Below the pieces are notes generated by a model, which saw only the letters and a program-made list of their open reading frames with translations, ran no database searches and was not told the DNA's origin. A program made the position numbers and the translations under genes. A stretch of 64,000 nt of DNA from assembly GCF_000744785.1 (NCBI RefSeq), contig NZ_JQMO01000003.1:1-64000 (forward strand). Reading direction: 5' to 3'. Origin of the DNA: Kitasatospora azatica KCTC 9699 (GTDB lineage Bacteria > Actinomycetota > Actinomycetes > Streptomycetales > Streptomycetaceae). Within the stretch, counting starts at the first letter, position 1. Every line of letters starts with the position of its first letter. This document shows positions 7,193 to 40,309 of the stretch, piece after piece.

Positions 7193-7406
7193 GGCCGTCT
7201 CCCGGTCTGCGCGGCACGCCGGATCGGCGGCGGGCCGGGATCCGGTTGTGGAGCTGACGTGCAGTCACCATAGTGCCCCGTGCGCGGCCTGCGAAGGGGT
7301 CAATTGCCCTGCGCTGCAAGGGCGGTGGTGACAAGGCGCGGGCACCCGGCGCGTGGCGGGCCCGGTGGTGCGCCGGGCGGCAGCGGTGCCGTGCGGGTGC
7401 CGCGGG

Positions 7407-7720
7407 TCAGTGCAGGATCGCGTGGGTGACCGCGCAGGAGTTGGTGTCGGCGGACAGCGCCTCGTCCAGGCGCCGCGCTTCGGCGCGGTCCTGGAAGGAG
7501 CCGGCACGCGGATGGATCCGGCCGACCAGACCCGGCCAGGTGGCGGGCGCGCGGGGCGCGCCGTGCCGGTGCTGGTGCTGGTGCTGGTGCTGGTGGAGCT
7601 CGCCGACGCTCGCGGCGGCGACACTGCGGTCGCCGGAGCCGATGACGTCCGTGCCGCCGACGTGGCCGACGGGCGGTCGGTCAACGCGTGGCTGAGTGCG
7701 GACGGATTGGTGCTGGTCAC
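7407..7720 (-). pseudogene. N-terminal fragment of an NB-ARC/TPR STAND protein with a terminal tag
   Basis: The strongest minus frame reads VIGSGDRSVAAASVGEL, a His-Gln run (HQHQHQHQHRH), then WPGLVGRIHPRAGSFQDR and a helix ending CAVTHAILH before a stop at 7407. In actinobacterial NB-ARC/TPR proteins the pattern 'W-P-x-x-VG-x-(I/V)-P-x-x-A-x-x-FQ-x-R' precedes 'V-x-x-x-L-x-G-x-GGVGKT'; here the stop falls just before the P-loop. No start codon exists in this frame. A GTG at 7718-7720 with AGGAG upstream opens the neighbouring frame, suggesting a frameshift. The simple (GGTGCT)n repeat at about 7567-7596 encodes the His-Gln run. Confidence 0.55.
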
Positions 7721-7753
7721 CAGGGGTGGAACTCCTACTCGGCCCCTCTCGGA

Positions 7754-8644
7754 CTAACCCGACAAGGCGGACGTCTCACCCAAGGCTGACAGAGAGGGCT
7801 GCAGCGCGGTGACGGCCGGAGACACCTGCCCACGGGGATGCACCACCATCACCTTCCAGGTCGGTGCGTTCTGGGCGAACCGGCGTGCCGTCAGGTCGGG
7901 AAAGCGGGCGGCCAGGGATTCCGGCATGATGCACACACCCAAGTCCTGGCGGACCAGGTCGGTGGCGCTCAGAATGTCGTTGACCTCGAAGGTGGCGGCA
8001 CGGTCGACGAGGGCTGTACGAAAGGCACGGTCGACCGAGTGCCGGATCGCCCAGCCGACGGGGAATTCCACCAGTGGTAGGCCGGCCACCTCGGCGAGGG
8101 TGACCGGTCGCTCGGGTTCCACGGCGCGGCTCGGCGCCGCGATCAGGACCATCTCCTCCTCCTTCAGCACGCTTACGGCCAGTCCTCGCTGCTGCGGGCG
8201 GGCCAGCGCCACGACGGCCACATCCGTGGTGCCGTCGCGCAGTGCCCGCAGGAGGTCGTCCGCCGATGCCTGGCGAAGCCTGACCGTCACCTGCGGATGC
8301 TGGTGACGGAAGGCGGCCAGCGCCTCGGCGAGGCCCGTGTAGAGACCCTGCATGACGCCGATCGTGATCTCCCCCCGGAGCTCTCCTTTGGCCAAGTCAA
8401 CGGCGGCCCGGGCCTGTTCGGCGGCCTGTAGCGTGGCACGGGCGGCTGGGAGGAACGCCTGGCCCGCCGGGGTGACGGACACCCGGTGGGTGCTGCGGTG
8501 GAACAGCGATGCGCCCAGCTCGCGCTCAAGGGCGCGCACCGTGGTGGACACCGCGGACTGCACCACGTGCAGGCGCCGCGCCGCCGCGCTGAAGCCGCCC
8601 TCCTCGGCGACCGCGACGACGACCTCCATCTGCCGAAGATCCAT
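7754..8644 (-). CDS. LysR-family transcriptional regulator (296 aa)
   Basis: N-terminal winged helix-turn-helix begins MDLRQMEVVVAVAEEGGFSA and contains AARRLHVVQSAVSTTVRALE and the LFHRSTHRVSVTPAGQAFL wing. The C-terminal two-lobed effector domain starts near residue 90 (GEITIGVMQGLYTGLAEALA). I chose ATG 8644, ten codons inside the longest frame, because LysR proteins normally start one residue before this D-L-R-Q motif. It is transcribed divergently from the cysteine hydrolase and MFS genes at 8832-10882. By the usual LysR arrangement it probably controls them from the 187-bp intergenic region. Confidence 0.95.
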   Translation of the reverse strand: MDLRQMEVVVAVAEEGGFSAAARRLHVVQSAVSTTVRALERELGASLFHRSTHRVSVTPAGQAFLPAARATLQAAEQARAAVDLAKGELRGEITIGVMQGLYTGLAEALAAFRHQHPQVTVRLRQASADDLLRALRDGTTDVAVVALARPQQRGLAVSVLKEEEMVLIAAPSRAVEPERPVTLAEVAGLPLVEFPVGWAIRHSVDRAFRTALVDRAATFEVNDILSATDLVRQDLGVCIMPESLAARFPDLTARRFAQNAPTWKVMVVHPRGQVSPAVTALQPSLSALGETSALSG

Positions 8645-14215: not shown

Positions 14216-14841
14216 TTCGGTCCGGTATCTGCGCCAGCTGGCCACCGGCTGGCCCCGCCGTCGGGCCGGCAGCAGACGGTAGACGGCGCCGGGCAGGACG
14301 CTGCTCATCGAGGACAGGTCCCGGCCCTTCTCGACGGCGGTGGCCGGCAGATGCACAACCGCCCCGACCGGCCGGCCGGTCGGGGCGGCGCTCGGCCACC
14401 AGCGCCACGGCGATCCTTCAGTGACGCCTCAACCAACTGGGGAGCGAACAACACACCTGGCCGTCTTCAAGGCTCTCGCCGCAGTTGCGTGAAGGGCCGC
14501 CGCGAAGGTCGCTCCCCAGCAGCCACGACCTGGCCGGCCGTGACCTGGGGAAGATTGGGGAGCAGTGACGCGATCCCCTTCCCCGGCCAACGCACACCCT
14601 GAGCAGCCGCCCGCGCAGGACGACTCGTCGCGTTCCGCACAGGGCGCGCAGGCGGCGCCTCAGGGCTCGCGGCGAATAGTTCGCAACCAAAGTGATTCCG
14701 CCGGACCGCCGGTTTGTGTACGTGCTTCCGGGCGCTCTTACCCAGGCGGGCGCTTCGCACTGATCCTGATGATCGGCCAGGTCGCCGCTGAACCGTGGCC
14801 CTCGGCCTCCCACGCCAGCTTGTTCCTATGAGAGGAAACTT
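14216..14841. other. No supportable gene; promoter region of the protease is expected here
   Basis: Open frames on both strands have shadow-like composition. The stretch 14660-14760 is less GC-rich than its flanks (GCGAATAGTTCGCAACCAAA), as expected for a promoter region, but I cannot place -35/-10 boxes with confidence. Confidence 0.35.
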
Positions 14842-16398
14842 GTGGCCATCGGAATTCGCCTGCCGCGCGGCTTCGCCGTCCTGGGCGCCGCCCTGCTCGC
14901 CGCCGCCGCCGTTCCGCTGACGGCGTCCAGCGCCGCGGCGGCGTCCCCCATCTGCCTGAGCGGCAAGCTCCAGTACGACTACCAGTCGGCCGAAGCCGGC
15001 ACGGGCAAGCCCACGATGACCAAGCCGGTCCGCAACGCGAACGTCCAGCTGTGGGGCAGGGAGAAGTCCACCGACACCCCGCACCAGCTCACCGCCGACT
15101 ACCAGTACACCGGCGTCAACGACGGCGGCTTCAACCTCTGCTACACGCCCACCTCCACCACGTCGATGAGCAGCATCTGGGTGCGGTCCCGCACCGAGAG
15201 CACCAAGCTGTGGAAGGTCAGCGACACCACCGGCACCCCCTACACCCTGGACTCGCCGACCCTGACCAACGTCGCCGCCAGCACCTCCGTCGGCACCCTC
15301 AAACCGTCCGCCGACACCGCGCGGGCCTGGCACGCCTTCGATACCGTCAACCTCCTGTGGTGGTACCGCAACAACCCCACCAGCGACTGCTGGTCCACCC
15401 ACGAGCCGAACAGCAACGCCTGCACCGAGCTCAACGTCCAGTGGAGCGCCAACTCGGCCGACGGTCCGTACTACGACCTGGCGGGCACCGTCCACCTGTC
15501 CGCCGCCGACCCCGACTCCGAGCACACCGTGCTCCACGAGTCCGGCCACTTCCTCATGCACCGCCTGTACAACGGACGGTGGCCGGCCATCACCAACTGC
15601 AGCCCGCACTACATCAACCTGGCCAGCTCCGGCACCTGCGCCTGGGCGGAAGGCTTCGCCGACTCCACCGCCGCCTACCTCCTCGGGGACCACCGCTACG
15701 TGTGGCCCAACGGCAGCAGCTACAGCTTCACCTACACCACCGGCTGGAACACCGGGGACCAGGTCCAAGGCAACGTGGACGGCTCACTGCTCGACCTGTG
15801 GAACAACCTCGACGACGGCTGGAACAGCACCATCAACGTGATGGCCGCGCAGACGCCCTCCACCTTCGCCGAGTACTTCAAGACCGACCGGCCCACGGCC
15901 AACCCCCCGCTCGCCACCACCGCAACCGCGCTCACCTACCTGGCCGCCCACGCCATCAACTACGGCCCCACCATCGTGGGCGACGGCCGGACCCACGCCC
16001 TCTCCAACAGCGGTGGGATGGCCCTGGAACGTGCCGACCAGTGCGGCACCTCCGGCAGCTCCCCCGCCATCCTCAACACCTACGACCCCACGCGCGCCAA
16101 GCAGCAGTGGACGCTGCGGGCGTATCCGAACGGCACCGCGAAGCTCATCGACGGCTGCCCGGACGCCCTGGTGCTGACCGCGCCCACCACCGCCGGCGGC
16201 CAGGCCACCCTACGGGCCGTCAACTCCTCCAACCCCTACCAGGACTGGCAGGTCACCCAGAACGCCAGCGGCACCCTGACGATCACCAACCCGGCGACCG
16301 GATACTCCCTCGACAGCGCCGCCGTCACCCTCGGCGCCGCCGTCACCGCCAACCCGGCCGCCAACGCCAACACCCAGAACTGGGCCGCCCTCACCTGA
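14842..16398 (+). CDS. Secreted HExxH metallopeptidase with C-terminal trefoil-like domain (518 aa)
   Basis: GTG start with AGAGGAAA upstream. A Sec signal peptide covers about residues 1-34 (RGFAVLGAALLAAAAVPLTA, then cleavage after SSAAAA). A zinc site is clear: HESGH at residues 232-236 in the context EHTVLHESGHFLMHRLYNG, with E270 in CAWAEGFADS as probable third ligand, spaced as in gluzincins. Residues about 30-190 form an N-terminal beta domain. The last 140 residues (MALERADQCGTSGSS..., QQWTLRAY, YQDWQV, NWAAL) carry spaced Q/N-W motifs typical of ricin-type beta-trefoil carbohydrate-binding repeats. Likely an extracellular protease targeted to a glycosylated surface. A terminator hairpin follows. 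Confidence 0.85.
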   Translation: MAIGIRLPRGFAVLGAALLAAAAVPLTASSAAAASPICLSGKLQYDYQSAEAGTGKPTMTKPVRNANVQLWGREKSTDTPHQLTADYQYTGVNDGGFNLCYTPTSTTSMSSIWVRSRTESTKLWKVSDTTGTPYTLDSPTLTNVAASTSVGTLKPSADTARAWHAFDTVNLLWWYRNNPTSDCWSTHEPNSNACTELNVQWSANSADGPYYDLAGTVHLSAADPDSEHTVLHESGHFLMHRLYNGRWPAITNCSPHYINLASSGTCAWAEGFADSTAAYLLGDHRYVWPNGSSYSFTYTTGWNTGDQVQGNVDGSLLDLWNNLDDGWNSTINVMAAQTPSTFAEYFKTDRPTANPPLATTATALTYLAAHAINYGPTIVGDGRTHALSNSGGMALERADQCGTSGSSPAILNTYDPTRAKQQWTLRAYPNGTAKLIDGCPDALVLTAPTTAGGQATLRAVNSSNPYQDWQVTQNASGTLTITNPATGYSLDSAAVTLGAAVTANPAANANTQNWAALT

Positions 16399-16414
16399 CA
16401 GCCCGCAGCGCGCC

Positions 16415-16447
16415 GGCGCTCCCGCAGCCCCCGGCCGCGGGAGCGCC
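16415..16447 (+). terminator. Hairpin after the metallopeptidase gene
   Basis: GGCGCTCCCGC (16415-16425) pairs with GCGGGAGCGCC (16437-16447), 17 nt after the stop. Confidence 0.65.
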
Positions 16448-16539
16448 CCACCCACCAGCACACGAGCCTGTCCACAGGCGCGCCGCGCGCTGGATCACTG
16501 CTGGACCCGTCCATCACGCACGAAAAGGCGCGCGGCCGC

Positions 16540-16715
16540 GCGGTGCGGTGCGCGCGGCGGCGCGGTGCGGTGCGCGCGGCGGCGCGGTGCGGTGCGCGCG
16601 GCGGCGCGGTGCGGTGCGCACGGCGGCGCGGTGCGGTGCGCACGGCGGCGCGGTGCGGTGCGCACGGCCGCGCGGTGCGGTGCGCACGGCCGCGCGGTGC
16701 GGTGCGCACGGCGGC
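16540..16715. repeat. 22-bp tandem repeat, 8 copies
   Basis: The unit begins GCGGTGCGGTGCGC and recurs exactly every 22 bp from 16540, 16562, 16584, 16606, 16628, 16650, 16672 and 16694. Copies differ only at GCGC/GCAC and GGCGGC/GGCCGC positions: the first three carry GCGC, the last five GCAC, suggesting stepwise amplification. As 22 is not a multiple of 3, long open frames across it are artefacts. It lies between two convergent genes. Confidence 0.9.
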
Positions 16716-16848
16716 CCTACCGGGCCAGGCGCTGACCGAGCGCCACGCGCAGCAGGGCGAGCGCGTCGGCGGCACTCGCGCAGCGCGGTTCCTGGACGCC
16801 CGGGTTGGTCGGCCAGGTGGGGCTCCACATCTACGAAGACCCAGCCGG

Positions 16849-18429
16849 TCAGAGGCAGCTGCGGCGCACCCCGGGGCGGGCTGCCGGAACCTGGTCGGCG
16901 CCGCGCGGGCGGCCAGAAGCTGGTCGTGCCGGTCCATTCACGCTGTACACAGACCGGTCACCAGTAGCAGCCAGGGCCTCCTGGCGCTCGTCACTGCGCC
17001 GGTCGACGTGCGCAACCTCGAACCTGCGCGCAGTGGTCTGGCGTGTCCAGAGAAGCATGATCGAGGCGGCCAAGGTGAGCAGCGCGGCCCCGCCCCATAG
17101 CGTCGGTACCAGGCCGGCGACGAAGTCGGATCCGCTGCGGTAACTCCCGCAGACGGAGAACACGGTGGAGCCGACGGCGACTCCGAGGACGCCTCCGGTC
17201 TCCCGTAGGGCGCTGTTCACGCCGGCTGCGGGGCCCTGCTGGGCCGGGCCTGCGCGGGTCATCAGTAGGTGGGCGGAGGGGGTGAAGAAGAGGGCCATGC
17301 CGATTCCGCCAGCGAGCAGTCCTGGGACCTGGGTGGGGTAGGCGACGTCGGGTACGGCGGTCGTGGCGAGCCAGGCCAGGCCGAGGGCGCTGAGTCCCAG
17401 TCCTGTGGCTGTCAGGGCCCTGGCGTGGCGGTCGGCCCATCGGCCGGCCAGCGGGGCCACCAGCAGTGGCATGGCTGTCCACGGCAGCATGTGCAGCCCG
17501 GCCTGCAGCGGAGTTTGTCCCTGCACGGTCTGGAGGAACTGGGCGAGTAGGAAGACCGCGCCGAAAACTCCGGCGTGCAGGAGGAAGCCGGCCGAGTTGA
17601 GGGCGGTGAAGTACCGGTCGCGTAGCAGGGCGGGATCCAGGAGCGGGGCTTGGGCGCGATGCTGCCAGGCGAGGAAGCAGCCCAGCAGGGCGGTGCCGGC
17701 TGTGGCGACGGCGATGCGCAGTGGGGTGTTGCCATCGCCCAGGCCGGTTCCCGTCACCGCCAGGAGGATGCCGAGCAGGCCGAGGCCGGCCAGGGCGGTC
17801 CCGAGCAGGTCGAGTCGGGCGTGCGTGCCCCGGCTCTCGCGCAGCCGCCCTCTGGCGAGTGGCAGCAGCGCGCAGCCGATCGGGACGTTCAGCCAGAAGA
17901 TCCCACGCCACGACCCGCACGCCATGACCGCTCCACCGACCAGCGGGCCGAGCGCTACGGCCACCCCGATTACCGCGCCCCACAGGCCCAGGGCGAGCCC
18001 GCGCCGTCGCTCTGAGACGGCGTCGGTCAGCAGGGTCAGGCTCAGCGGCTGAATCAGGGCCGCGCCCGTGCCTTGCACGACACGGGACACCAGCAGCGGC
18101 CTGACCCCCGGTGCCAGGGCCGCGAGAGTCGAGCCGGCGGTGAACAAGGCCAGCCCGGCGGTGAAGACTCGCCGGCGACCGTAGCGCTCGCCGAGGACCG
18201 CGGCCGGCAGCGGGAGCACGGCCAGGGTGAGTGTGAAGGCGTTGACCAGCCAGCCCAGCTCATGGGCATCGAGTCGCAGGTCGGTGCGAAGGACCGGCAG
18301 GGCAGCGGTGACGATGAGGTGGTCGAGGCCGCATACGAATCCGGCGATCGCGGTGATGATGCAGGTCCACCGGGCAGTTCGTGGGCTTCGTGCGCCGTCC
18401 TGGCAAGCCGCGCCTCGAACTGCCCTCAC
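16849..18429 (-). CDS. MFS drug exporter, DHA2/14-TM type (526 aa)
   Basis: About 14 hydrophobic segments. Motif A is GERYGRRRVFTAGLALFTAG after TM2, and the TM4-TM5 region carries VVQGTGAALIQPLSLTLLTD and LGPLVGGAVMACGSWRGIFW, matching EmrB/QacA exporters. GTG start at 18429 overlaps the stop of the SGNH hydrolase gene (GTGA), so the two are translationally coupled. The last 60 residues are polar and run close to the minisatellite. As the final gene of a glycosyltransferase-hydrolase-SGNH-exporter operon, it probably exports a glycosylated or acylated small molecule (inference from context). Confidence 0.92.
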   Translation of the reverse strand: MRAVRGAACQDGARSPRTARWTCIITAIAGFVCGLDHLIVTAALPVLRTDLRLDAHELGWLVNAFTLTLAVLPLPAAVLGERYGRRRVFTAGLALFTAGSTLAALAPGVRPLLVSRVVQGTGAALIQPLSLTLLTDAVSERRRGLALGLWGAVIGVAVALGPLVGGAVMACGSWRGIFWLNVPIGCALLPLARGRLRESRGTHARLDLLGTALAGLGLLGILLAVTGTGLGDGNTPLRIAVATAGTALLGCFLAWQHRAQAPLLDPALLRDRYFTALNSAGFLLHAGVFGAVFLLAQFLQTVQGQTPLQAGLHMLPWTAMPLLVAPLAGRWADRHARALTATGLGLSALGLAWLATTAVPDVAYPTQVPGLLAGGIGMALFFTPSAHLLMTRAGPAQQGPAAGVNSALRETGGVLGVAVGSTVFSVCGSYRSGSDFVAGLVPTLWGGAALLTLAASIMLLWTRQTTARRFEVAHVDRRSDERQEALAATGDRSVYSVNGPARPASGRPRGADQVPAARPGVRRSCL

Positions 18430-19439
18430 CGGACGGCGGCCTGCGCGGCCGGGTTATGAACCGGCGGTGCTGCGGGTCGGGAGGCCGACTGCCAGGGGAC
18501 GCAGCGGACGGAAAGCTCGCCGGTTGGGCTGGTCCGCGGGAAGAACGATGCTCCCGGTCGGCGGTGGATCTCTCGCATCGCCTCCGGCACGCTCAGGTCG
18601 TAGGCGTGGTCGCCGAGGTAGCCGGGCTCGCTCGGCGGGCCGGAGGGGCAGGGGGAAGAGGATGTCCGGTATCGGTGGGCGTGGCCTGCCGTCAGGATCG
18701 CGGGCAGGGCGCGGTTCTGATAGAGGCGGTAGCCGTCCGGTGAGGGGTGGAAGCCATCCGGGCAGTAGAGCGCTCGCGGGTGGCTGCGGAACTCCGGTGC
18801 TGTCAGCGACACCACCGCCGCCCCGGCCCGCAGTGCGGCGGCGGTCTGCAGACTCGCGAGCCGCTTGGACCTCCGTCGGCCCAGCGGGCGGGCCCAGCGG
18901 CGTACCGCTCGCGCCGCTGATACGTCAGGGCAGGAGGTGACCACCACCTGCCAGCCGCCGGCCCGCAGGCGCTCGACATGGCCGGCGAGCCGGGCCGCGG
19001 TGCGGCGCAGGCTCACCGGGAGAAACACGTCGTTGCCGCCGATCTGGACGATCGCCACTCCCGGCTCCTGCGCCGCCACCGTGCGAATCTGGCGGCTCAT
19101 CGAGGCGGTGGTGGCGCCGGCCCGGGCTTCCACCTGGACCTCGACCGGGCAGTCCAGGCCCGCTGCCAGTGCGTCGGCCAGGACGGCGGCGACGGTCTGC
19201 TCGACCCGGGTCACCCCGACCGTGACGGCGGAGGAGTCGCCGAGCACCGCCAGCCGAAGCGGTTCTCCGTGGGTTGGGCCGCGCAGCCCCTGCGGGTCGG
19301 GCACGCCCGAGCCGTCCCACAGGGGGTTGCGCAGCACGAGCCGGAACCCGGCGCGGGCGCCCGCGCGGCGTGCCCTGCGCGCTAAGCGGTCGCGCAGGGC
19401 ACGCCGGGAAGCCGGGGACGGGGGCATGGACGGGGGCAT
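18426..19439 (-). CDS. SGNH/GDSL hydrolase (337 aa)
   Basis: Esterase/acyl hydrolase of the SGNH superfamily. Block I is PLRLAVLGDSSAVTVGV (nucleophile Ser in GDSS), block III is VAIVQIGGNDVFLPV, and block V is CPDGFHPSPDGYRLYQ with the catalytic Asp-His pair. No signal peptide; the N-terminus is basic (RRALRDRLARRARRAGARAG), so it probably acts in the cytoplasm. ATG at 19439 has AGAGGAGA about 7 nt upstream. It is coupled by a GTGA overlap to the MFS exporter and lies 200 nt downstream of the S15-type hydrolase. Confidence 0.9.
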   Translation of the reverse strand: MPPSMPPSPASRRALRDRLARRARRAGARAGFRLVLRNPLWDGSGVPDPQGLRGPTHGEPLRLAVLGDSSAVTVGVTRVEQTVAAVLADALAAGLDCPVEVQVEARAGATTASMSRQIRTVAAQEPGVAIVQIGGNDVFLPVSLRRTAARLAGHVERLRAGGWQVVVTSCPDVSAARAVRRWARPLGRRRSKRLASLQTAAALRAGAAVVSLTAPEFRSHPRALYCPDGFHPSPDGYRLYQNRALPAILTAGHAHRYRTSSSPCPSGPPSEPGYLGDHAYDLSVPEAMREIHRRPGASFFPRTSPTGELSVRCVPWQSASRPAAPPVHNPAAQAAVR

Positions 19440-19639
19440 GGATGTCTCCTCTGATTGGCGCGGTGGATCGGTCCGACGAATTTCGGCGGTGCCGGACATG
19501 CGTCGTCCGCAAGCCGTCGGACCGGGCCGTAAGACGGTCGCGGTCCCTGCGTGTCGGACCGTGTTCGGCCTGATCGGGACGTGTGCGGCCCGTGGCTGAG
19601 CGGGCTGGCCGGAGGGCATCGGCGCTCGTGCGGTCGGTG

Positions 19640-21253
19640 TCAGCCGGTTCGGGCGGGGGCCGTGAGACGGGTACCGGAGGTGTCGAAGTCGAGGGTGGCT
19701 CCGAGCGGGTTCTCGTCGGCGTAGCGGTGGTCCGCGGTGTCGATGACGAGGGCGAGCCGGTGTCCGGGGCGGATGGTCCAGGCGGTGGCGGGTAGAACCA
19801 CGTCCACTGGCAGCGGTCTCCCGGCGGGTTGGCCGTAGAAGGAGTAGGGCGTGTGGCTCAGCAACCGGGCCGTTCCCAGAGGGTCCACGTCGTACAGGTA
19901 GCTGACGAATGTGCCGTGGTCGGCGGAGCCGGTCACAGTGGTGTGCAGCCGCGGTGAGCCACGCAGTGCCCAAGGAGTGTCGAGCGGTCGGCTCTGCCAC
20001 ACGGCGGCCAGGGGCGGGACAAGCAGCGGGAGCACGGTGGTGGGCGGCAGGCCTACGGTGTCGAGGCGACCGGCAGCCGGGAAGAGACCGGAGTCGGCCG
20101 GCGAGTCGGCGCCGGCGACCAGGCGGACGGAGTCGGCGCCCGGGAGGGCAGGCTCGAGCTGTACCGCCCTGAGGGCGAGGTCGAGGGCGGCCCAGGTCGG
20201 GTAGCTCTCCAGCCGGTCGTCGTCGCGCGGGCGCATCAGGACGGGCCCCAGTGCCTGGGCGCCGTTGGGCCGGCCGCGCAGGAAGTGGTCCAGCCAGTCG
20301 GTGGCGTGCTCCCACACCCGGGCCTCGGGCTGGAGCAGGTCCGCTTCGCGGGCGCTGGAGTCACCGTGGCCGCCAGGACTCATCCACAGTTGGCGGGGGC
20401 CGGTCAGGGCGTCCAGGAAGTGGCCGCTCTGGCCCGCGGGGACCAGCGGGTCGCTCCATTCGCCTGCCATGAACACTGCGGTCTGATGGGCGTTCAGCTC
20501 CGGTACGAAGGAGGCCGGCGAGCGCTGCGTGGTCCAGTCGCGGACCGCCGCGATGTCCTCTCCTGAGCGGATCCGGGCCATGGCATCGCGCGTGGCCGGG
20601 CTCAAGCGGCCGTTGAGCCGGCCGATGACCTCCTGAAACGTCACCATCGTGCCGGCTGGGGTGTTGCCCGGATAGAAGGAACCCGCGAGGTCGGTCCACG
20701 GACACAGCGCAGCCACCGCCTTGATGCGGGCGTCGTGGGCGGCCGCGTTCAGGCTGAGCGCCGCGCCGTAGGAGGAGGAGAGCATCCCGATCCGGTCCGG
20801 GTCGGCGCGGGTGTGCGCCAACGCCCAGCTGATCACCTCGGAGGCGTCGGAGACGTCGGCGGGGCCGGTCATGTCGATCTCGCCACCCGAGCGCCGCAGC
20901 CCGCGCGGGTCGTAGGCGACCACCAGGTATCCGGCCCGCGCCAGCTCTCGGTGACGGTCGATGATGGTGTCCAGCGGCATGGCCCACCAGGCGCCGGGAA
21001 TGACGAGCAGCGGGTGCGGTCCGGGCCCGGCGGGCTGGTACACGTCCACGGCGAGCGCGGTGCCGTCCGGGACGTGGACAGTGGTGCTGTAGGTACTCCC
21101 TCCACTCGCCTCGGCGCTGTCGACGGCCGGGAACGCAGTGGCGGCTTCAGCCGCCGCGACCGGCCCAAGGACGCCGCAGAGCGCCAGCATCGAGGCCAGC
21201 AGCACGCGCGGGGCCACCCGCCGGCCGACCGACGCGACGCGGTTGCCTGTCAT
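19640..21253 (-). CDS. Secreted CocE/NonD-type alpha/beta hydrolase (537 aa)
   Basis: X-Pro dipeptidyl-peptidase (S15) superfamily. A signal peptide spans about residues 1-38 (RVLLASMLALCGVLGPVAAA). Catalytic features: nucleophile Ser near residue 160 in DRIGMLSSSYGAALSLNAA, Asp near 266 in MAGEWSDPLVPAG, and His near 291 in SPGGHGDSS. The C-terminal 200 residues are the galactose-binding-like jelly roll of the S15 family (YADENPLGATLDFDTSGT near the end). The ATG overlaps the glycosyltransferase stop codon (ATGA), indicating coupling. Family members cleave esters or amides; an extracellular deacylating or activating role on an exported compound is plausible inference. Confidence 0.9.
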   Translation of the reverse strand: MTGNRVASVGRRVAPRVLLASMLALCGVLGPVAAAEAATAFPAVDSAEASGGSTYSTTVHVPDGTALAVDVYQPAGPGPHPLLVIPGAWWAMPLDTIIDRHRELARAGYLVVAYDPRGLRRSGGEIDMTGPADVSDASEVISWALAHTRADPDRIGMLSSSYGAALSLNAAAHDARIKAVAALCPWTDLAGSFYPGNTPAGTMVTFQEVIGRLNGRLSPATRDAMARIRSGEDIAAVRDWTTQRSPASFVPELNAHQTAVFMAGEWSDPLVPAGQSGHFLDALTGPRQLWMSPGGHGDSSAREADLLQPEARVWEHATDWLDHFLRGRPNGAQALGPVLMRPRDDDRLESYPTWAALDLALRAVQLEPALPGADSVRLVAGADSPADSGLFPAAGRLDTVGLPPTTVLPLLVPPLAAVWQSRPLDTPWALRGSPRLHTTVTGSADHGTFVSYLYDVDPLGTARLLSHTPYSFYGQPAGRPLPVDVVLPATAWTIRPGHRLALVIDTADHRYADENPLGATLDFDTSGTRLTAPARTG

Positions 21254-22476
21254 CGGTTCACTGCGGGCTGACGGCGCAGCGCCTGCTCGATCACATCGGC
21301 GGCTCGGGCGGCGCCGCCGGCCTCCTGGACCTGACGGCGCATCGCGGCGACAGCGCGCGCGACGTCCGAGTCCGCGGCGACCTGCAGGACCGCCTCGCGC
21401 AGGGCCTGTGGCGTCGCCAGCTCCCGCGGCAGGTGCATCCCCAGAGACAGCTGCTCGATCTGGTGGGCGTTGGCCCGCTGCTCGGCCATCTGCGGCACCG
21501 CGACCAGCGGAACGCCGTACGCCAGGGCCTCCATCGTGCTTCCCATCCCGCCATGAGTCACGAACGCGCTCGCCTGGGCGAGGACGCTCAGCTGCGGCAC
21601 GCTGGAATGGATCTCGATGCTGTCGGGAACCGGCCCGATCTCCCGGGGATCGACACCCGCTCCGACAGACATGACGACGTGCCAGGGCAGCTCCGCGAAC
21701 GCCTGCACGCACGCACGGTAGAAAGACGGCCGGCGCGTGTACTGCGAGCCGAGCGAGACCAGCAGGACCGGAAGACCCGATGCCGGGGCCTGCCAATGCC
21801 CCTGGTACGAGCGGTCTCCGAGCGCCGGACCGACGAACGCGACCTTCTCGGCAGCCACGGTCTCCGCACGTCGCTGGAAGCTGCGCGGGAAGAACGCCAC
21901 CGCCTCGCGGGGCGCGAGCGTGAGTTCGTGGACCGAGGCGGTGACGCCGTGGGAGGCCAGTGCGGCGGCAAGTTGCGCGTACCCCGGAATCTGCGCGATG
22001 TCCGCCACCCCGAGCAGCTCCTGGACGATCCCCTCGTAGGGCAGATGGGTGGGCGCCAGCTGAACGGCCGGCACCCGCCAGCGCGCGGCCAGCAACGGGC
22101 CGGCCCACGCGTACATGTCGTACAGCACGATCTCGGGATGGTCGTCGGCGAACGCCGCCGCCAGGTCGGGAAGCGCGACGACGGTCTGCATGACGGCCTG
22201 GGTGACCCCCGCCGCCAGGTCCTCCGGCGCCTCCTGGCCCGCAGCGGCGTCCTGGTAGACCACCGGGGTCGCCCCGACAGCCTTCACCTGCGCCGCGAAC
22301 TCCTCCGTGACCGCATAACTCACGCGGTAGCCCCGTGCGACGAGCTCCGCCACCACAGCAAGCGTCGGGTTCACATGCCCGTGCTGCGGGACGTTGAACA
22401 CCGCGACGTGCCCCCTGCCTCCCACGGCGGACCGGGATGCCGGGAAAGCGGCACGAGCGTGGGGAAGAACAGTCAC
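21250..22476 (-). CDS. MGT-type UDP-glycosyltransferase (408 aa)
   Basis: GT1 family, macrolide-glycosyltransferase type. The N-terminal acceptor domain begins with GHVAVFNVPQHGHVNPTLAV. The C-terminal donor domain carries the PSPG-like signature SAFVTHGGMGSTMEALAYGV followed by PLVAVPQMAEQRANAHQIE. No membrane segment. I chose GTG 22476 because GGAG lies 7 nt upstream and it gives the usual length of about 400 residues; longer extensions read into low-quality sequence. First gene of the operon. Known relatives (OleD, OleI, Mgt) inactivate macrolides by glucosylation, so self-resistance is a reasonable hypothesis, not a demonstrated role. Confidence 0.92.
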   Translation of the reverse strand: MTVLPHARAAFPASRSAVGGRGHVAVFNVPQHGHVNPTLAVVAELVARGYRVSYAVTEEFAAQVKAVGATPVVYQDAAAGQEAPEDLAAGVTQAVMQTVVALPDLAAAFADDHPEIVLYDMYAWAGPLLAARWRVPAVQLAPTHLPYEGIVQELLGVADIAQIPGYAQLAAALASHGVTASVHELTLAPREAVAFFPRSFQRRAETVAAEKVAFVGPALGDRSYQGHWQAPASGLPVLLVSLGSQYTRRPSFYRACVQAFAELPWHVVMSVGAGVDPREIGPVPDSIEIHSSVPQLSVLAQASAFVTHGGMGSTMEALAYGVPLVAVPQMAEQRANAHQIEQLSLGMHLPRELATPQALREAVLQVAADSDVARAVAAMRRQVQEAGGAARAADVIEQALRRQPAVNR

Positions 22477-22739
22477 GGTGGCTCCATCGGATAGACCATC
22501 ACCGCCAAAGCGGGCGGGATCATTGCAGCGATCAACTGCCGTCCAGCAGCGAGGAACCGGCCGATACCGCCTAGTTCGCCCACACGAGGCCGGCGCCCCA
22601 CGGTTGGTTGACAGACCACCGGACCACCCCCTGCCGCCGCACCCCGGGCCCGGCCGACACACGGCACAGGTGGTACGTCCCCGGCGAGCCGACCGGCCGC
22701 CGGCCTGGCCATCCGCGCGGCCCTCCTGCAGCATCGCGT

Positions 22740-36745: not shown

Positions 36746-39700
36746 GTGTCGATCTCGGCGAGCAACCGCTCGGCGGCGGCGTACCGCATGGATCATGTGG
36801 AGGTGCACGACCACCAGCACCATCACTACCCGCCGACCCCTGACCCGGTGCCGGGGCTGGTGCGAGTCGGGACGGTACCGCCGCTGGCGTCCGAGGCCGA
36901 CGACTTGGCCCGTACCGTCGACGCGCAGTGGCGGGAGGAGGCCAGGGCCCGCAGTCTGCGGGACCCCCAGGTGGTGCCGCTGACGTGGTCCGCGACCCGG
37001 CGGGCCGTTGCCGACGGCCCGGAGGCGGTGTTCGGCCGGGGCCAGGCCGGACGGATCACGCGGGTCAGCGTCGACGGCAGGCTGGAAGGCGGCTTCGACG
37101 CGGCGGTCGCCTCCCTCGGCGAGGACTTCGGGCGCATCCCCAGCGGGCGGCTGGTGGTGCTCGGCGAGCCGGGCGCCGGGAAGACCGTGCTCGCGCTGCT
37201 GCTGACCCTGGGCCTGCTCGGACGCCGCGCGCCCGGCACCCCGGTGCCGGTCCTGCTGTCCGTGGGCGGCTGGGACCCGGTGCGCAGGTCGCTGGCCGAC
37301 TGGGTGGTCGGCACGCTGGCCGACACCTATTACGCCGGGCGCACCGAGATCCCGCGCCGGCTGCTGCACCAGGGGCTGCTCGTGCCGGTCCTCGACGGCC
37401 TCGACGAGATCCCCGAAGCAGCCCGGCGCAACGCAGTAAAGGAGGTCAACCGCTTCATCGGGACGGACCGTCCCGTGGTGGTGACCTGCAGGTCGGCCGA
37501 GTACGAGGACGTGATCACCGGCGGTTCCCCGGTGCTGCGCCGCGCGCCAGTGGTGGAGGTGCGTCCGGTCCAGGTCGAAGACACCGTGGCCTATCTGGAG
37601 AGCGTGGACTGGCCTGACGGCACCTCGTGGGACCGGGTCGTGCATCACCTGCGCACGGAGTCCGACAGCCCGGTCCACCAGGCCCTGCTCACACCGCTGA
37701 TGATCTCGCTCGCCCGCATGGTGTATGCGCGGTGCGGTGGGGACCCGGCCGAACTGCTCGACCCGGAACGGTTCGAATCCCGGCACGGCATCGAGGACTA
37801 CCTCTCCTCCCGGGTGATCGAGGCCGCCTACGCACCGGACCGGCTACTGTCCGGTGCACCGGCCGACCCGTCGGACCCGGCCGGATTCCCGGGCGCGGGA
37901 AGGCCGTTGACGCCACCCGGTGCCGCGGGCGCGCCCGGTGCGGCCACCGCAGCGGCGGCCGCCGGAGCCGGGTGGGACGCCGAAACCGCCCGGCGCCTGC
38001 TGACGTACCTCGCCCTGTACCTGCATCGCCACGGCGAACGCGACCTGGCCTGGTGGCGGATGTCGGGCCGGCTGCTCCCGGCGTGGGCCGTGCCGGCCGC
38101 GGCGCTCGCCCTCGGTATGGTCATGGCGGCTGTGGCAGTCGTGGGGTCCGGCGTGGCATCGCACCGGGAGGCGCTGCCCGCACTCGGGATCGGCGGCCTG
38201 CTCGTCGGGATCGGCACGGCAGTGGTGGCTGTCGCCCTGCTCGCCGTACCCGAACGACTGCCCGGGCGCCTGTCCTCGGGCCGGGCCGGATCGCTGCGCC
38301 GGCTGCGCCGCGGATTCCTCAAGGGCTTCGGGCTCACCATGGTCCTGACAGTCCCGATGCCGGCCACTTTCGCCCTGATCCTGGCGATCGAGGAGGAGCC
38401 GCTCTCCGTTTACCTGAACTACGTCCAGCTGATCGGCGGCTGCACGGCTTTCGCCTGTGTGGTGGGGCTGGGGTTGGCGGCTCACCACTGGCTCGATTCA
38501 CCGCCCCGCTCGGCGGTCCAGGCGACGCCGGACCTGTTCCTCGTGGAGGACCGGCGGGCGTCGGCCGTCGGCGCGGGGAGCGCGGGGCTGGTGGTGGCGC
38601 TGCTGACCTGGCCCCTGGTCCTGGTGGGCTTCGTGATCGGTGGGATCAGCGGGCGGGCCCTCAGCGGTTGGCCGGGGTGGCCCGACCACTACGACCTGGG
38701 CGGCGTCGTGCGCTCGATGTTCGCGAGCGTGTATACCCCGGGGAGCGGATTCGGTAATTACAGTGCCAAGTTGGTGCTGGTCCCCGTCCTCTCGTCGCTG
38801 GTGCTGGGTGCCGGCTTCACCCTCGCCGCGCTCATGACGAGGGCCTACCCGCGATTCCTGATCATGCTTGCCTATCTGGCGTTCCAGAAGCGGCTGCCCA
38901 TGCGGTTCATGGCGTTCCTGCGCGACGCGCGGAACCGGGGGCTACTGCGGCAGTCGGGAGCGGCGTACCAGTTCCGCCATGCACGGCTGCAGGAGTATCT
39001 GGTGGCCGCTGCGACGGTGCCGGACGGGCAACGATCCGCCGCCCGAGGGGCGGGCCTCGACACGGAGGGCCGCCGGGGCGAAAACCGTGGCCGGATCGGG
39101 GGCCGAGGCCGGGTGGTTGCGCTCGCCTGTGCGGTGCTGGCGGTCGTGGTGCTGGCGACTCCCCTCACCAACCGCCCGACGGACTCGTCCAGTGCCGTAC
39201 TCGGCGGATTCCACACGGGAGTGGAACACGTGGCGTTCGGCCCCGACGGCCGGACCCTGGCCACCGTGGACGGCGGCACGCTGTGGAGCCTCATCGGCAG
39301 CGACACGGCGTACGTAGGAGTGTGGAGCCTCGACGACGGACACCGCATCGCACGGATGGAGTGCTCCGGGTCGCTCGACAGGGTGTTCTTCGCCGGCAAG
39401 GGTCGTGCTCTGGTCGCCGCCGGGCGGACGGGACCCACCGAGCGACCCCGGCGCTACATTCAGGTGTGGGAGGCCGGCTCCGGCACCGCGCTGAGCGGAC
39501 CCGACGGCGGGGAATCTGCCGCCTACGCGGGACTGGGCGCGGACGACCAGGTAAGCCTGCTCAGCATCGCGGCCGACCCCGACGCCTTGACATTGCGCGA
39601 CGCCCGGGACGGGCACACGATCAGCCAGCTGACCGGGCCGAGCGCGCGGGGCGCTACGTCCGCCGTCCTCAGCCCTGACGCGCGCTTCGTGGTCACCACG

Positions 39701-40309
39701 ACCCGGAATTCCCTGATGCAGCTCTGGCGGGTGGCCGACGGCCACCCGATCGGTGACGCAGGCACCGGCTTCGAGCCCACAGCCTCCTTCAGCGCCGACT
39801 CCTCCGTTGTGGCGATGGTTGCGACGGACGGGAAGAAGGTCGAAGTACGGGACACCTTCCAGGGACGGATCATCAGCACCTTGCAGACTGAAAGCGCCAG
39901 TGCTAGCCAAGTGCTGCTCAGCCCGGACGGCAGTACGGCGGCGACCGACACCTACTCCGACGTCCAACTGTGGAACACGGCAACGGGCAGTAAGATCGGC
40001 AGCCCGCTTGCCGGCACGGAGCCTGACACGTCGGACGGGCACCACGACGCCGTGATGCGCTTCAGCCCGGACGGGCGCACGCTCGCGACGACGGTGGGCC
40101 CGGACCTGGAGCAGATCCGGCTGTGGAACACCGCGGACGGACAGCCGATCGGCCCTGTTCGGTCCGGTCACGTCAAAGCGGTCAACGACATCGCGTTCAG
40201 CCCCGACGGACTCACCCTGGCCACAGCATCCGACGACAAGACCGTACGGCTGTGGCGGCTCGACACTCTGGGGCTGCGGGAACGGGCGGGTGCACTCGGC
40301 AAGAGGTGA
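36746..40309 (+). CDS. Membrane-embedded NACHT-WD40 STAND ATPase (1187 aa)
   Basis: Signal-transduction ATPase of STAND type. Order: N-terminal tag VSISASNRSAAAYRMDHV followed by a His-rich run (HDHQHHHYPP); linker VRVGTVPPLASEADDLA; NACHT with Walker A GEPGAGKT (residues 140-147) and Walker B LDGLDEIPEA (about 216-225); the helical region to about 440; six predicted membrane segments between about 445 and 700; one more at about 789-806; then a WD40-type propeller from about 825 to the end (last blade DIAFSPDGLTLATASDDKTV, RLWRL). GTG 36746 is chosen because the tag begins there; ATG 36584 would add 54 low-complexity residues. The likely role is threat sensing by the propeller with NTP-driven oligomerisation at the membrane (family inference). 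Confidence 0.88.
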   Translation: MSISASNRSAAAYRMDHVEVHDHQHHHYPPTPDPVPGLVRVGTVPPLASEADDLARTVDAQWREEARARSLRDPQVVPLTWSATRRAVADGPEAVFGRGQAGRITRVSVDGRLEGGFDAAVASLGEDFGRIPSGRLVVLGEPGAGKTVLALLLTLGLLGRRAPGTPVPVLLSVGGWDPVRRSLADWVVGTLADTYYAGRTEIPRRLLHQGLLVPVLDGLDEIPEAARRNAVKEVNRFIGTDRPVVVTCRSAEYEDVITGGSPVLRRAPVVEVRPVQVEDTVAYLESVDWPDGTSWDRVVHHLRTESDSPVHQALLTPLMISLARMVYARCGGDPAELLDPERFESRHGIEDYLSSRVIEAAYAPDRLLSGAPADPSDPAGFPGAGRPLTPPGAAGAPGAATAAAAAGAGWDAETARRLLTYLALYLHRHGERDLAWWRMSGRLLPAWAVPAAALALGMVMAAVAVVGSGVASHREALPALGIGGLLVGIGTAVVAVALLAVPERLPGRLSSGRAGSLRRLRRGFLKGFGLTMVLTVPMPATFALILAIEEEPLSVYLNYVQLIGGCTAFACVVGLGLAAHHWLDSPPRSAVQATPDLFLVEDRRASAVGAGSAGLVVALLTWPLVLVGFVIGGISGRALSGWPGWPDHYDLGGVVRSMFASVYTPGSGFGNYSAKLVLVPVLSSLVLGAGFTLAALMTRAYPRFLIMLAYLAFQKRLPMRFMAFLRDARNRGLLRQSGAAYQFRHARLQEYLVAAATVPDGQRSAARGAGLDTEGRRGENRGRIGGRGRVVALACAVLAVVVLATPLTNRPTDSSSAVLGGFHTGVEHVAFGPDGRTLATVDGGTLWSLIGSDTAYVGVWSLDDGHRIARMECSGSLDRVFFAGKGRALVAAGRTGPTERPRRYIQVWEAGSGTALSGPDGGESAAYAGLGADDQVSLLSIAADPDALTLRDARDGHTISQLTGPSARGATSAVLSPDARFVVTTTRNSLMQLWRVADGHPIGDAGTGFEPTASFSADSSVVAMVATDGKKVEVRDTFQGRIISTLQTESASASQVLLSPDGSTAATDTYSDVQLWNTATGSKIGSPLAGTEPDTSDGHHDAVMRFSPDGRTLATTVGPDLEQIRLWNTADGQPIGPVRSGHVKAVNDIAFSPDGLTLATASDDKTVRLWRLDTLGLRERAGALGKR

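Follow-up and report, generated by a model that had tools for sequence, protein, structure and literature searches.

Organisation of the locus

The window analysed here comprises the first 64,000 nucleotides of contig NZ_JQMO01000003.1 of Kitasatospora azatica KCTC 9699, and between positions 16849 and 22476 it carries four genes, all on the reverse strand, for a glycosyltransferase, two hydrolases and an exporter. Comparisons with other genomes indicate that the four form a cassette which is almost certainly real and co-inherited. The first gene (21250..22476, (-)) encodes a GT1-type glycosyltransferase of the macrolide family (MGT, 408 aa, TIGR01426) and starts with a GTG that has GGAG just 5' of it, an alternative start at 22425 being possible. 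It is followed by a gene (19640..21253, (-)) for a CocE/NonD (S15) alpha/beta hydrolase of 537 aa (PF02129, TIGR00976), predicted to be secreted, and, after a gap of 200 bases (19440..19639, (-)), by the genes for an SGNH/GDSL-type hydrolase of 337 aa with GDSS as its block I (18426..19439, (-), PF13472) and a DHA2-family MFS exporter of 526 aa (16849..18429, (-), TIGR00711, PF07690). The assignments were made with Pfam and NCBIfam profiles at curated cut-offs, all of which were exceeded, and the four family names given in a preliminary description of the locus thereby stand.

The ATG of the S15 gene overlaps the stop codon of the MGT gene as ATGA (21250/21253) and the GTG of the DHA2 gene overlaps the stop codon of the SGNH gene as GTGA (18426/18429), so both couplings that had been counted among the three junctions are present in the sequence. 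The proposed overlapping four-gene operon is divided by the 200-base gap, and what occupies 16849-22476 is two translationally coupled pairs in tandem, MGT with S15 and SGNH with DHA2. The gap offers space for a promoter of its own, but a sigma-70 scan recognised none in it. Just 3' of the DHA2 gene a 22-base GC-rich unit is repeated in 8.5 tandem copies (16528-16715), and a terminator-like hairpin (16528-16542) is located within this repeat region.

Distribution of the cassette

When 70 genomes of the own genus (the source included) were searched with each of S15, SGNH and MGT, only scattered relatives of 38–48% identity were found, among them S15 relatives in 18 other genomes (39–43% identity), none of which is adjoined by an MGT or SGNH match listed in the parallel searches. 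The first impression from these searches, that the cassette was unique to the source strain, was overturned by four further genomes. A family search (326 genomes) revealed one outstanding S15 protein, 50% identical, in genome G250, and a large sister genus was searched with a two-row S15 profile (392 genomes, of which 111 passed a limit of 1e-120). The S15 proteins of G250, G431, G561 and G448 score 9e-198 or better and the next best among the 392 genomes 1e-131; this S15 subfamily is sharply separated from other S15 proteins. All genome searches scored few first-look candidates per genome, and members may have been missed.

MGT adjoins S15 in all four of these genomes. In G250 (locus L073) the whole set is present, with MGT and S15 on one strand and an ATGA overlap between them, together with an SGNH-DHA2 pair that is convergent and also overlapping. 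A convergent SGNH-DHA2 pair, on the strand opposite MGT-S15, is likewise found in G431 and G448 (three of the four further genomes), and in G431, G448 and G561 S15 precedes MGT without overlap. The 4-base stop/start overlap between SGNH and DHA2 is kept in every genome with the pair (4/4, source included). The set is thus not restricted to this strain, a restriction which the preliminary description had named as counting against its proposal, but the exact gene order of the window was found in none of the other genomes searched.

Outside the subfamily the association was not seen. Another cassette gene was found near none of 16 S15-centred loci of 10 to 18 kb (the 17 fetched stretches minus that of G250; E-value limit 1e-8), near none of 44 S15 loci with 1.5 kb flanks (E-value limit 1e-6) and near none of 13 MGT-centred loci (3 + 10, one of them cut short on one side). 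No further member appeared in a class search of 296 genomes or in two 41-genome searches of supposed relatives, which covered largely the same genomes and not near kin, and the cassette was not found in the plasmid collection. An SGNH profile search (295 genomes) returned only the G431 and G448 copies together with weak matches in G421 and G511, both without partners, and a scan of genome contigs with an S15 peptide pattern gave one distant match of 22% identity. MGT identity was dropped as a guide to cassettes, chromosomal MGTs of 62–66% identity not being located in cassettes. The distribution is patchy, and in G250 the cassette adjoins what by eye is an IS5-like transposase remnant. The weak SGNH relative in G511 (L180, 7469-10865) adjoins genes that by eye appear to encode a desaturase, a ketosynthase and an acyl carrier protein. 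No description of such a cassette was found in the titles or abstracts listed by searches of the open-licence PMC literature.

Co-inheritance of the four genes

To place the proteins, trees were made of each. The MGT tree included 10 loci of the family search, 9 loci chosen from a longer set of genus-search loci and, on a long branch, the source genome's second MGT. As outgroup the S15 tree had 13 rows and the SGNH tree 10 (without genus locus L035), whereas the DHA2 tree was completed with 4 rows drawn from 18 plasmid records and with 5 other exporters of the source genome. In all four trees the cassette proteins form a clade of their own (MGT 94/82, S15 100/100, SGNH 100/99, DHA2 97/98), and therefore the set has almost certainly been inherited together. 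The trees of MGT, SGNH and DHA2 agree in placing the source genome outside the other members, whose proteins are about 43–64% identical to the window copies.

That the four genes are adjacent by accident and function independently of one another is very improbable. Such a view could draw on the exact order of the window occurring in no other genome searched and on G561 being without two of the genes, but it is largely refuted by the co-inheritance, that is, by four cassette-specific clades and by coupled overlaps kept at about 43–64% identity. The earlier proposal that the four genes form a set is strengthened by the same clades and by the conserved coupling.

A second copy in the source genome

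The source genome (8.27 Mb) is assembled in three contigs, the window being the start of contig C3, and a second copy of the cassette is located, inverted, on contig C1 (99882-105508). It belongs to an inverted duplicate segment of ~8 kb, window 14555..22640 against C1 99718-107804, whose two copies differ in BLAST by gaps with zero mismatches. The segment reaches from window position 14555, which corresponds to the end of C1, to 22640, an inner border that lies 164 bases 5' of the MGT start, and beyond it the contexts differ, with TetR and SnoaL-like genes on C3 and a MarR gene on C1. C1 stops inside the repeat. The segment probably belongs to a terminal inverted repeat whose inner edge carries the cassette. 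At the SGNH start a 12-base tandem repeat (window 19416-19442) is found, and the C1 copy is without one C at window position 19424, a frameshift with respect to the SGNH ATG used in the window copy. Since the other differences between the two copies are likewise insertions or deletions, these differences are likely to be assembly errors.

The hydrolases and the exporter

The S15 protein scores 111.1 bits with Peptidase_S15 (cut-off 23) and 129.8 with CocE_NonD TIGR00976 (66.3), and its triad S161, D268 and H296 is invariant in 18 sequences. An N-terminal hydrophobic segment typical of a Sec signal is found in all five S15 proteins of the cassettes, from which the enzyme is predicted to be secreted. 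The structure nearest to its predicted model (pLDDT 81) is that of PaL (8yzn), which from its name we take to be the Pseudomonas alcaligenes lipase, followed by that of the cocaine esterase CocE. An identity as X-Pro dipeptidyl peptidase was considered and rejected (NF003780, 47 bits against 642; the nearest folds are esterases), and in sequence and model the protein resembles esterases (PaL, CocE) and not dipeptidyl peptidases. The extracellular hydrolase of the preliminary description, there called esterase/peptidase-type, can by similarity be narrowed to an esterase.

The SGNH protein scores 90.6 bits with PF13472 (Lipase_GDSL_2; cut-off 32.9) and keeps blocks I, II, III and V (GDS, G108, GxND, DxxH), with S69, G108, N136, D228 and H231 invariant in 14 sequences. 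In the window protein no signal peptide was seen by crude hydropathy, and judging from its N-terminal region the enzyme is predicted to be located inside the cell, in line with the cytoplasmic second hydrolase suggested before. The AlphaFold2 model (pLDDT 84) has a TesA/GDSL-esterase-like fold plus an extra N-terminal helix, long and basic (residues 9-35).

The DHA2 protein also matches PF07690 and lies just above the cut-off of efflux_EmrB/DHA2 TIGR00711 (233.8 against 230.2 bits). Crude hydropathy gives 9 membrane helices versus 14 for the family, and the three DHA2 relatives in the other genomes are without a stretch in the middle of the protein.

The glycosyltransferase

With TIGR01426 the MGT scores 400.9 bits (cut-off 260). 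The His (HxxP) and Asp of GT1 enzymes have catalytic roles, and the corresponding H34 and D120, together with E332-Q333, are invariant in all five cassette MGTs. PMC8657839 reports an E/D-Q donor motif in OleD. When the two halves of the protein are compared, conservation among the cassette MGTs is 75.0% in the acceptor half and 71.0% in the donor half, the corresponding values for the OleD/Mgt side being 64.0% and 76.7%. Because the acceptor half of the cassette enzymes is no less conserved than their donor half, the sequences suggest one shared acceptor. The nearest non-cassette MGTs form a sister clade and are chromosomal, located beside a WS/DGAT-like acyltransferase and mostly also a 4HBT thioesterase (L105-L112). 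The preliminary description had taken a grouping of the glycosyltransferase with sterol/flavonoid enzymes, apart from antibiotic enzymes, as counting against its proposal, a point which this acyltransferase-linked sister group touches.

That proposal followed the logic of oleandomycin self-protection, in which a macrolide is glucosylated inside the cell, exported and reactivated outside, an esterase replacing the glycosidase. Membership of TIGR01426 and OleI (2iya) as the best solved structural relative speak for it, as does the acceptor promiscuity of such enzymes, mentioned in PMC8657839. However, the MGT does not group with the OleI/OleD/Mgt-like clade, being placed on the other side of a 99/98 branch (midpoint root), and its scores do not reach the curated cut-offs of the OleI and Mgt profiles (NF000362 and NF033129; 383.2 and 350.4 bits against 700). 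Removal of an O-glucoside is not expected of an esterase, and no glycosidase or other deglycosylating enzyme was recognised when the genes of the five cassette loci were read with a home-made gene finder and some of the open reading frames scanned against Pfam (the search did not extend to the remainder of the genome); nor was a macrolide cluster recognised nearby. We therefore regard oleandomycin-type macrolide self-protection as improbable, and a macrolide as substrate of the cassette is possible but not favoured.

Proposed function

The reading that we put forward tentatively, and to which we give a little less than an even chance, is that the cassette protects in layers, handling a single natural product that is hydrophobic and hydroxylated and carries an ester; that the enzymes share this substrate, in what order they act and that the outcome is protective is what we infer. 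The secreted S15 esterase would cut the ester of the compound outside the cell; compound that enters, or is made inside, would be deacylated by the SGNH enzyme, capped with glucose by MGT and then expelled by the DHA2 pump. Such layered protection is suggested because the S15 subfamily is set apart by its score gap, MGT adjoins it, each protein has its cassette clade and the SGNH-DHA2 overlap is conserved; because the acceptor half is conserved, S15 is esterase-like and the catalytic residues are intact; and because the distribution is patchy, an IS5-like remnant is found in G250, the cassette is duplicated here and no cluster was recognised at four of the five cassettes. The wider claim, that this is a phylogenetically coherent and mobile system which links glucosylation and efflux with the hydrolysis of esters both inside and outside the cell, all for one shared natural product, is doubtful.

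Several observations weigh against layered protection. The locus in G561 has S15 and MGT only, without SGNH and DHA2, so this pair can stand alone, and no regulator common to the cassette loci was recognised. The S15 tree conflicts with the other three, with G250 outermost on a long branch, and an agreeing tree was rejected (AU p = 0.014); this could reflect the exchange of one partner or fast evolution of the G250 S15. The setting of the sister-clade MGTs fits ordinary lipid or glycoside metabolism. In G431 (L165) a P450 gene (5930-7285) overlaps a terpene synthase gene (7282-8364) on the same strand directly upstream of S15-MGT, the P450 being pentalenene-oxygenase-like (391.6 of 800 bits), and these two neighbours fit biosynthesis, as do the dTDP-sugar and other biosynthetic genes that adjoin plasmid DHA2 relatives.

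The latter two observations favour a minimal tailoring and export cluster, in which an endogenous metabolite (e.g. a terpenoid glycoside), made elsewhere or, in G431, next door, would be glucosylated, deacylated and exported. PaL, under the identity taken above for 8yzn, would add to this, since the P. alcaligenes lipase hydrolyses L-menthyl propionate, a terpene-alcohol ester, according to PMC9902596. However, no terpene synthase, other scaffold gene or biosynthetic cluster was recognised among the open reading frames scanned at the other four cassettes (source, G250, G448 and G561), where the earlier suggestion that no biosynthetic cluster is local holds, G431 being the exception. Because the terpene adjacency was seen once, tailoring is kept as a rival and not as the main role, and we consider it unlikely.

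A further possibility is lipid or glycolipid housekeeping, in which MGT and the two hydrolases would rework an acylated glucoside akin to what the chromosomal MGT-WS/DGAT-thioesterase locus of Streptomyces makes. The sister-clade MGTs beside a WS/DGAT-like acyltransferase and a 4HBT thioesterase point in this direction, and so does a 4HBT_2 protein that follows MGT in G561 (about 21% identity, E 1e-6). The patchy distribution, the drug-type MFS pump and the secreted esterase are unlike housekeeping, though, and none of the cassette genes was recognised as an acyltransferase, which makes this quite unlikely.

If layered protection is the role, the cassette would represent a self-protection logic unlike that of oleandomycin, and it would give a clue to the chemical selecting for it. 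If the role is tailoring, the cassette would mark a small glycoside cluster that is easily overlooked, since most genomes show no recognised scaffold gene beside it.

Other genes in the window

A secreted protein of 518 aa is encoded at 14842-16398, in which a metalloprotease-like motif (HESGHFLMH) was identified by eye and a ricin-B lectin match remained sub-threshold. At 36746-40309 a protein of 1187 aa has C-terminal WD40 repeats and a weak NACHT match below the cut-off, and may act in signalling or defence as a protein of the STAND type.

Comparison with known systems

In Streptomyces antibioticus OleR is the secreted glycosidase of oleandomycin self-protection. PMC6804068 and PMC8657839 describe the glucosyltransferases (OleD, OleI) and the ABC pumps (OleB, OleC) of this system. 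The cassette shares with it a GT1 glucosyltransferase of MGT type, an exporter and a secreted hydrolase, but its MGT is of another clade, its pump is an MFS and not an ABC protein, its secreted enzyme is an esterase and not a glycosidase, an SGNH hydrolase is added and no biosynthetic cluster was recognised. Lone macrolide-inactivating glycosyltransferases (MGT of S. lividans, MgtA/GimA) have in common with the cassette enzyme the TIGR01426 family and the E/D-Q donor motif, whereas the latter lies below the curated Mgt cut-off and is part of a four-gene set.

A chromosomal MGT-WS/DGAT-4HBT locus in Streptomyces-like genomes (L105-L112) has the sister-clade MGT, 55–66% identical, but is without relatives of S15, SGNH and DHA2 and has an acyltransferase instead of hydrolases; the neighbourhood of MGT, acyltransferase and (mostly) thioesterase is itself conserved and uncharacterised. 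Finally, PaL (8yzn) and CocE resemble the S15 enzyme in fold, triad and C-terminal beta domain, at 36% and about 19% identity in structural alignment, and differ from it in that the S15 enzyme sits in a cassette together with an MGT.

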